DNA of 64,000 nt from an uncultured Elusimicrobia bacterium. Lineage in GTDB: Bacteria; Elusimicrobiota; Elusimicrobia; UBA1565; UBA9628. The position numbers and the translations under genes are program-made. The notes under the pieces were generated by a model, which made no database searches, was not told the DNA's origin, and saw nothing but the letters and a program-made list of their open reading frames with translations. Of the stretch, positions 27,627 through 28,045 are shown in pieces. Where the stretch lies: positions 62,001-126,000 of the forward strand of contig CAIKVT010000069.1 in NCBI GenBank assembly GCA_903830945.1. Direction: 5' to 3'. Position 1 is the stretch's first letter, and each line of letters starts with the position of its first letter.

Positions 27627-27744
27627 GGTGTCTCCTCCGGGGAAGTCGTCGGTTTATTTTAGCAAAAGACCCCGCACTCAATATACGACGCCGGCGCCAA
27701 AAAGTTCCCTCGCGTCTCGTGGCTTGGCAGGTCACTTGCAGGTC

Positions 27745-27773
27745 TTGACAGAAGTCGATGCCGGGCTTAGACT
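27745..27773 (+). promoter_or_regulatory. promoter of the candidate structured RNA
   Basis: A perfect TTGACA (27745-27750), a 17-base spacer and TAGACT (27768-27773). Transcription would start near 27780, just before the first arm of the long inverted repeat. This is one of the best-formed promoters in the window. Confidence 0.6.
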
Positions 27774-27779
27774 ATGAGT

Positions 27780-28004
27780 GACGGTCGGTCTTACGCCCGT
27801 CCTGAGTCCGGGTTCGTCGCAGTAGCAGTGGTTGTGAACGCAGACGTGGTTGTAGCGGAACGTATGCCGGTGTATTGGTCGTCGTAGTCAGCGTAGCCGT
27901 TGCATTCGCAGTCAGCAGCGTTCCGGACTCAGGACGGGCCCCGTAGCGCACATGAGGCGCCAAGGCAGTCGCTAGAACGACGATTGCCCTGGCGCCTCAC
28001 TTTT
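27780..28004 (+). ncRNA. candidate structured RNA (or long leader of the YaeQ-like gene)
   Basis: About 225 bases between recA and the YaeQ-like gene with no convincing protein. After the promoter at 27745-27773, a perfect 17-base inverted repeat (27795-27811 and 27923-27939, arm GCCCGTCCTGAGTCCGG) encloses about 111 bases that are rich in G and T and have a marked GNN/GTN triplet rhythm. A second, terminator-like hairpin follows and ends in TTTT. The order promoter, long-range helix, internal domain, terminator fits an independent small RNA. It could instead be a regulated leader of the gene at 28046. It does not match tmRNA, SRP RNA or RNase P by eye, and the interior does not pair as a 6S-like rod. 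Short reading frames inside (for example 37 codons from 27774) are Val/Ala-rich and unlikely to be real. Confidence 0.55.
27953..28004 (+). terminator. terminator hairpin of the candidate RNA
   Basis: TGAGGCGCCA (27953-27962) pairs with TGGCGCCTCA (27990-27999); inside, GGCA/TGCC and GTCG/CGAC extend the stem to a six-base loop. CTTTT follows directly. This is a strong rho-independent terminator, or an attenuator in front of the YaeQ-like gene 42 bases downstream. Confidence 0.65.
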
Positions 28005-28045
28005 ATCGAGGTCTGCCGCGATATCGCGCCGCACCGCCCAAGACC

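Follow-up and report, generated by a model that had tools for sequence, protein, structure and literature searches.

Nucleotides 27745–28004 of the window, by which we mean the whole 64,000-nucleotide (nt) stretch of DNA from an uncultured Elusimicrobia bacterium analysed here, are, as judged by sequence comparison, one member of a real, uncatalogued family of RNA genes of Elusimicrobiota. The sequence-only reading had flagged this place, between recA and a YaeQ-like gene, as a candidate new structured RNA; comparison with other genomes bears this out, the candidate being one member of a dispersed, modular family. Within the genome that contains the window, BLAST identifies two further related places, and more copies were found in relatives, at first in the same genus only. 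Searches with a covariance model of the 3' hairpin (R1) and its enlarged version (R2) detect this hairpin in each of the seven genomes that represent the genus, at 2 to 6 copies per genome (four in the window's genome) and about 25 altogether. Beyond the genus, the hairpin is present, mostly as a single copy, in further genera of the same family and also in two more families of the order and one more of the class; another family gave a weaker match. The copy counts are our own, made after removal of the reverse-strand matches of the same palindrome, and the E-values of the models are rough. Twelve stretches, all from Elusimicrobia assemblies, came out of a pattern scan of 84,980 species genomes, together with one chance match in an Undibacterium assembly that lacks the hairpin.

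An Rfam search, which had been proposed as a means of excluding known families, yields no match in Rfam 15 for the window copy or for nine homologous loci even at permissive thresholds, only chance matches far below the gathering cut-offs; the same tool recovers a tRNA at a neighbouring locus. A likeness to 5S rRNA seen by eye in part of the inner domain of the g9 and g11 copies was dropped given that cmscan gave no 5S match, and a highly conserved block of about 100 nt beside the G000:C63 copy proved to be tRNA-Thr.

Conserved helices and promoter

The most conserved part of the family is the 3' hairpin, not the 17-bp base helix (P1). Across 41 homologues, 98% of the cells of this core hairpin pair and 12 of the 17 pairs are changed on both sides, a result equalled by none of 500 shuffles. 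In the conserved architecture, a lower stem of 13 bp is separated from an upper stem of 4 bp by an internal loop, in which one unpaired base faces four, and a loop of 6–7 nt closes the hairpin. The single base and the third of the four that face it covary (A-U or G-C), so that an extra base pair inside the 1x4 internal loop is likely. Alignment A5 was fitted to the structure; alignment A1, built without it and thus the cleaner test of covariation, agrees. In the window, the earlier description of an 18-pair terminator stem followed by CTTTT is correct with respect to the long hairpin and the tail (arms 27953–27971 and 27981–27999, 89% complementarity) but not with respect to a plain 18-pair stem, which an internal loop interrupts; a more accurate description of the hairpin is a lower stem of 13 bp (12 pairs of which form here), then the 1x4 internal loop, an upper stem of 4 bp and a hexaloop.

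The base helix corresponds to the perfect 17-nt inverted repeat, with 111 nt between its arms, that was already evident from the window alone. It is nearly invariant within the genus. Compensatory changes, proposed earlier as a check on this helix, are found across genera: 9 of 16 pairs are changed on both sides (one of 500 shuffles reaches this value, and none of the 500 reaches the number of changed cells). The 231-nt stretch folds at −113.5 kcal/mol, compared with −85.8 kcal/mol for dinucleotide shuffles (z −6.4, 0 of 200), an excess that is due to the two helices because the inner 111 nt alone are not more stable than shuffles (z +0.37). The inner domains of five homologues are likewise no more structured than shuffles (z −0.14 to +1.37), and a conserved stable fold of this domain was therefore rejected. 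A short helix within it, P2, is moderately supported, with 93% of the cells paired and one pair changed on both sides among 15 homologues.

The proposed promoter, TTGACA at 27745–27750 and TAGACT at 27768–27773 with a 17-nt spacer, is present in full, and transcription is predicted to start at about 27780. A near-consensus sigma-70 promoter is found in nearly every copy of the family: the pattern TTGA[CT]-N16-18-T[AG]nAnT occurs in 38 of the 39 genuine homologues with enough upstream sequence, compared with 0.6% of shuffled upstream regions, the single exception being L003, with CACACT at the −10 position.

Table 1. Features of the RNA gene in the window (positions are those of the window)
Feature	Position	Strand	Basis
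Promoter, including conserved upstream GGTC, −35, 17-nt spacer and −10	27741..27773	+	sequence; homologue pattern count
Base helix P1, 5' arm	27795..27811	+	perfect inverted repeat; cross-genus covariation
Inner domain, variable	27812..27922	+	fold compared with shuffles
G comb (G at 27819, 22, 25, 28, 31, 34, 40, 43, 46, 49; A at 27837)	27819..27849	+	
Helix P2, 5' arm (pairs with 27897–27902)	27853..27858	+	RNAalifold and pair counts, 15 homologues
Helix P2, 3' arm	27897..27902	+	RNAalifold and pair counts
Base helix P1, 3' arm	27923..27939	+	perfect inverted repeat; cross-genus covariation
Core hairpin and terminator	27954..27998	+	covariance models R1 and R2; 41 homologues
Core hairpin parts	lower stem 27954–27966/27986–27998; 1x4 internal loop 27967 and 27982–27985; upper stem 27968–27971/27978–27981; hexaloop 27972–27977	+	
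CTTTT terminator tail	28000..28004	+	sequence

Three architectures and a G comb in the inner loop

The family comprises minimal, short and long forms that share the promoter and the 3' hairpin and differ in an optional 5' module, which is nothing, a short hairpin, or a helix of 15–17 bp enclosing 80–200 nt of loosely structured RNA. In the minimal form (about 55 nt; G000, G001, G003, G008 and others), the core hairpin directly follows the start; in the short form (G005, G017, G036, G044), a small hairpin precedes it; the long form, with the base helix and the inner domain, is represented by the window copy and by genera g9 and g11. In alignment A3 of the g9 long forms (e.g., L058:1306-1557), the 5' half of the inner domain has an additional conserved hairpin, GCCGG ... 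GGCCGAGGCC ... AACCGGC, which is absent from the window's genus. In L060 (G055), an inverted repeat, GGGACGTACCATTC ... GAATGGTACGTCCC, is located just upstream of the RNA promoter.

The inner domain had been described as G/T-rich, which is fair although the bias is moderate (35% G, 26% T), and as showing a triplet rhythm, which is real: G autocorrelates at lags 3, 6 and 9 in the window copy (z 5.2, 0 of 300 shuffles); most copies in the genus have z-scores exceeding 2, and the signal is weaker elsewhere. In alignment A2 (15 copies), every third column between 46 and 76, which correspond to 27819–27849 of the window, is G, with one exception; the mean identity at this phase is 0.96, compared with 0.82 and 0.80 at the other two (permutation p 0.0023). 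The triplet rhythm is, judging from this alignment, a conserved G comb in an unstructured loop and not a coding frame. In L017:176-360 (G001:C435), the 5' leader between the promoter and the base helix is a long run of degenerate CGT/CGC/CGCAGC triplets, so that triplet slippage may feed the inner domain; slippage alone leaves the conservation of the G's only unexplained.

Genomic sites and duplication

The RNA is located between convergent mutL and queE in G014, G335, G280 and G044, the last of which represents a different family of the same order; minimal or short forms are found after mutL in G000, G001, G003, G008 and G017, and long forms are found at queE in several other genomes. On these comparative grounds, the space between convergent mutL and queE is the ancestral site. 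The window copy has recA on one side and, on the other, the gene for a protein of the YaeQ family (PF07152, E 1.4e-7), the neighbours named in the sequence-only reading, with queE one gene further on. A copy adjoins recA in two of the seven species, and a general link to recA was rejected: G003, G004, G005 and G006 have recA without a neighbouring copy, and the recA neighbourhood is therefore secondary. The arrangement is not that of a riboswitch or a cis-acting leader, given that the RNA has its own terminator and lies head-on to queE or before unrelated genes.

In G005:C12, an identical block of 130 nt is present at L024:1120-1249 and L024:3828-3957, 2.7 kb apart and with unrelated flanks, both copies being of the short form. 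The block extends from ATTGGG before the −35 element to the end of the T run, which is exactly the promoter-to-terminator unit, and the comparison of the two copies indicates that they are a recent, precise duplication. Pairwise homology between dispersed copies stops at about the same ends. Thus, the predicted transcription unit appears to be also the unit of duplication.

A possible protein-bound small RNA and its alternatives

From the family, its helices, its promoter and its synteny, all of which are read directly from sequence, we infer a transcribed RNA with a protein partner and a target. The reading that we prefer, and that in our estimate could equally well prove right or wrong, is that of a trans-acting, Hfq-independent small RNA. 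The sigma-70-type promoter would drive a short RNA consisting of the optional 5' module followed by the strictly conserved 3' hairpin, which would double as the terminator and, with its asymmetric 1x4 internal loop and 6–7-nt loop, serve to anchor a bound protein. The base helix would present the unstructured G-comb loop to a ligand or target, namely, a single-strand RNA-binding protein or complementary mRNAs, and extra copies could raise the dosage or diversify the loop. This reading is favoured because the core hairpin and the base helix covary; because the promoter is present in almost all copies and all three forms keep it together with the hairpin; because the RNA is retained between mutL and queE even in another family of the order; and because an inner domain without stable structure keeps phased G's while no reading frame survives. 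It is also favoured by the proteins of these bacteria: Hfq (PF17209) was detected in none of 32 Elusimicrobiota genomes, with positive controls, and each of the seven genomes of the genus encodes RRM_1 proteins, which are present in 12 of the 13 genomes that carry the RNA, compared with 9 of the other 19. In the window's own genome, a gene for a glycine-rich RRM protein (L022:1671-2093) lies divergently beside one RNA copy and is followed by tRNA-Thr. An RRM-domain protein is a plausible but unproven candidate partner. Several observations weigh against the small-RNA reading: the co-occurrence with RRM_1 has a p value of 0.011 per genome but only 0.33 per genus; G008 has the RNA and no RRM_1 match; many genera of the same family have no match to the RNA, which is therefore not universal there; and, as the minimal forms show, some members can do without the comb loop.

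If the triplet rhythm reflected the codons of a small protein gene, the phase of the G's would be accounted for, and the window has a 37-codon frame that starts with an ATG at 27774. This ATG, however, is located upstream of the predicted start site, the start codon is not conserved, and the copies differ by single-base indels and in their stops, so that the earlier judgement that there is no plausible protein stands; moreover, the conserved comb would be the first codon position, with the second as variable as the third, and the antisense open reading frame has no Pfam match. We consider this explanation scarcely credible. Hardly more probable is a mere bidirectional terminator with an incidental promoter, an idea that fits the several genomes in which the RNA separates convergent mutL and queE, and also the weak hairpin score of the reverse strand, but leaves unaccounted for the promoter of nearly every copy, the invariant loop and the internal loop, which termination does not need, and the many copies at sites without a convergent gene pair. 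The unit could also be a small non-autonomous mobile element, mobilised in trans, in which the RNA structure would serve mobility or persistence more than host regulation. Like REP/RAYT and palindrome-associated non-autonomous elements, the family consists of dispersed hairpin elements, with copies at many unrelated intergenic sites in the genus and homology that ends at common limits, and the G005 pair is the one case of precise copies in unrelated flanks, as known for MITE, REP and PATE elements. Unlike REP/RAYT, it has a promoter and a terminator in nearly every copy, an old fixed locus kept in different genera and families, and no correlation with Y1 transposases; genomes that lack the RNA commonly have such transposases too, none was found in G004, which has three copies, and they were rejected as the mobiliser. 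Furthermore, inspection of the G005 pair by eye revealed no terminal inverted repeat or target duplication, the hairpin has accumulated compensatory changes over the long term, and the exact core pattern is absent from the viral contigs scanned. On balance, mobility as the main role of the unit seems unlikely.

A somewhat better case, although still an improbable one, can be made for a decoy or regulator of a general machine, similar to 6S, CsrB/RsmZ or Y RNA, in which abundant copies would tie up a single RNA-binding protein by means of the hairpin and the comb loop without pairing with mRNAs. Multiple copies with strong promoters, the repetition of a near-identical hairpin and a periodic unstructured loop that would suit repeated binding sites are all compatible with such a role, which may be vacant given that 6S RNA (RF00013) was not found above the cut-off in 34 genomes of relatives; this negative is weaker than that for Hfq because, of 14 well-known genomes used as the control, only 4 gave a match above the cut-off. 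The RNA resembles 6S RNA itself in having a long helix that encloses unpaired RNA, its own promoter and an intergenic position. It differs in that the inner domain is variable in length and lacks a conserved structure such as the 6S rod, in the separate conserved terminator hairpin and in the minimal forms without the helix; identity with 6S RNA was rejected for want of a match to the RF00013 model, which gives none in G000 even at an E-value of 10. Most genera other than g1 have a single copy, which also argues against a titrating role.

As a trans-acting small RNA, the family would have its nearest working analogue, not a relative, in FopS and GibS, multicopy small RNAs of Bacteroides thetaiotaomicron that act with the RNA-binding protein RbpB (PMC11697453). 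FopS is about 65–70 nt long and has a single-stranded 5' seed (PMC11697453). Both families are dispersed and multicopy, with several paralogous copies that have their own promoters and 3' Rho-independent hairpins, and both would be associated with a global host RNA-binding protein, which in Elusimicrobiota is only a candidate. In contrast to FopS, what the family described here conserves is the 3' hairpin, whose internal loop is asymmetric, whereas its 5' part may be missing or may consist of a hairpin or of a comb loop closed by a helix.

These findings add a well-supported, uncatalogued family of structured RNAs to a little-studied phylum; full-text searches for Elusimicrobia or Elusimicrobiota together with small RNA or 6S returned nothing relevant. 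With the conserved core hairpin and its covariance model, a protein partner can be sought directly. The loop with its phased G's is an unusual feature, specific enough to be tested, and the precise duplication from promoter to terminator prompts one to ask how a gene for a small RNA multiplies; the comb and the duplication are the parts most surprising to a specialist. A more speculative extension, which we regard as rather unlikely, is that the family represents a new class of modular, occasionally mobile RNA genes in which a protein or a filament, contacting RNA triplet by triplet, would read the helix-displayed comb loop, a mode of recognition that, to our knowledge, has not been described for bacterial small RNAs. 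If this is true, such a triplet-recognised loop would occur in a phylum in which, among the genomes tested, neither Hfq nor a known 6S RNA was detected.
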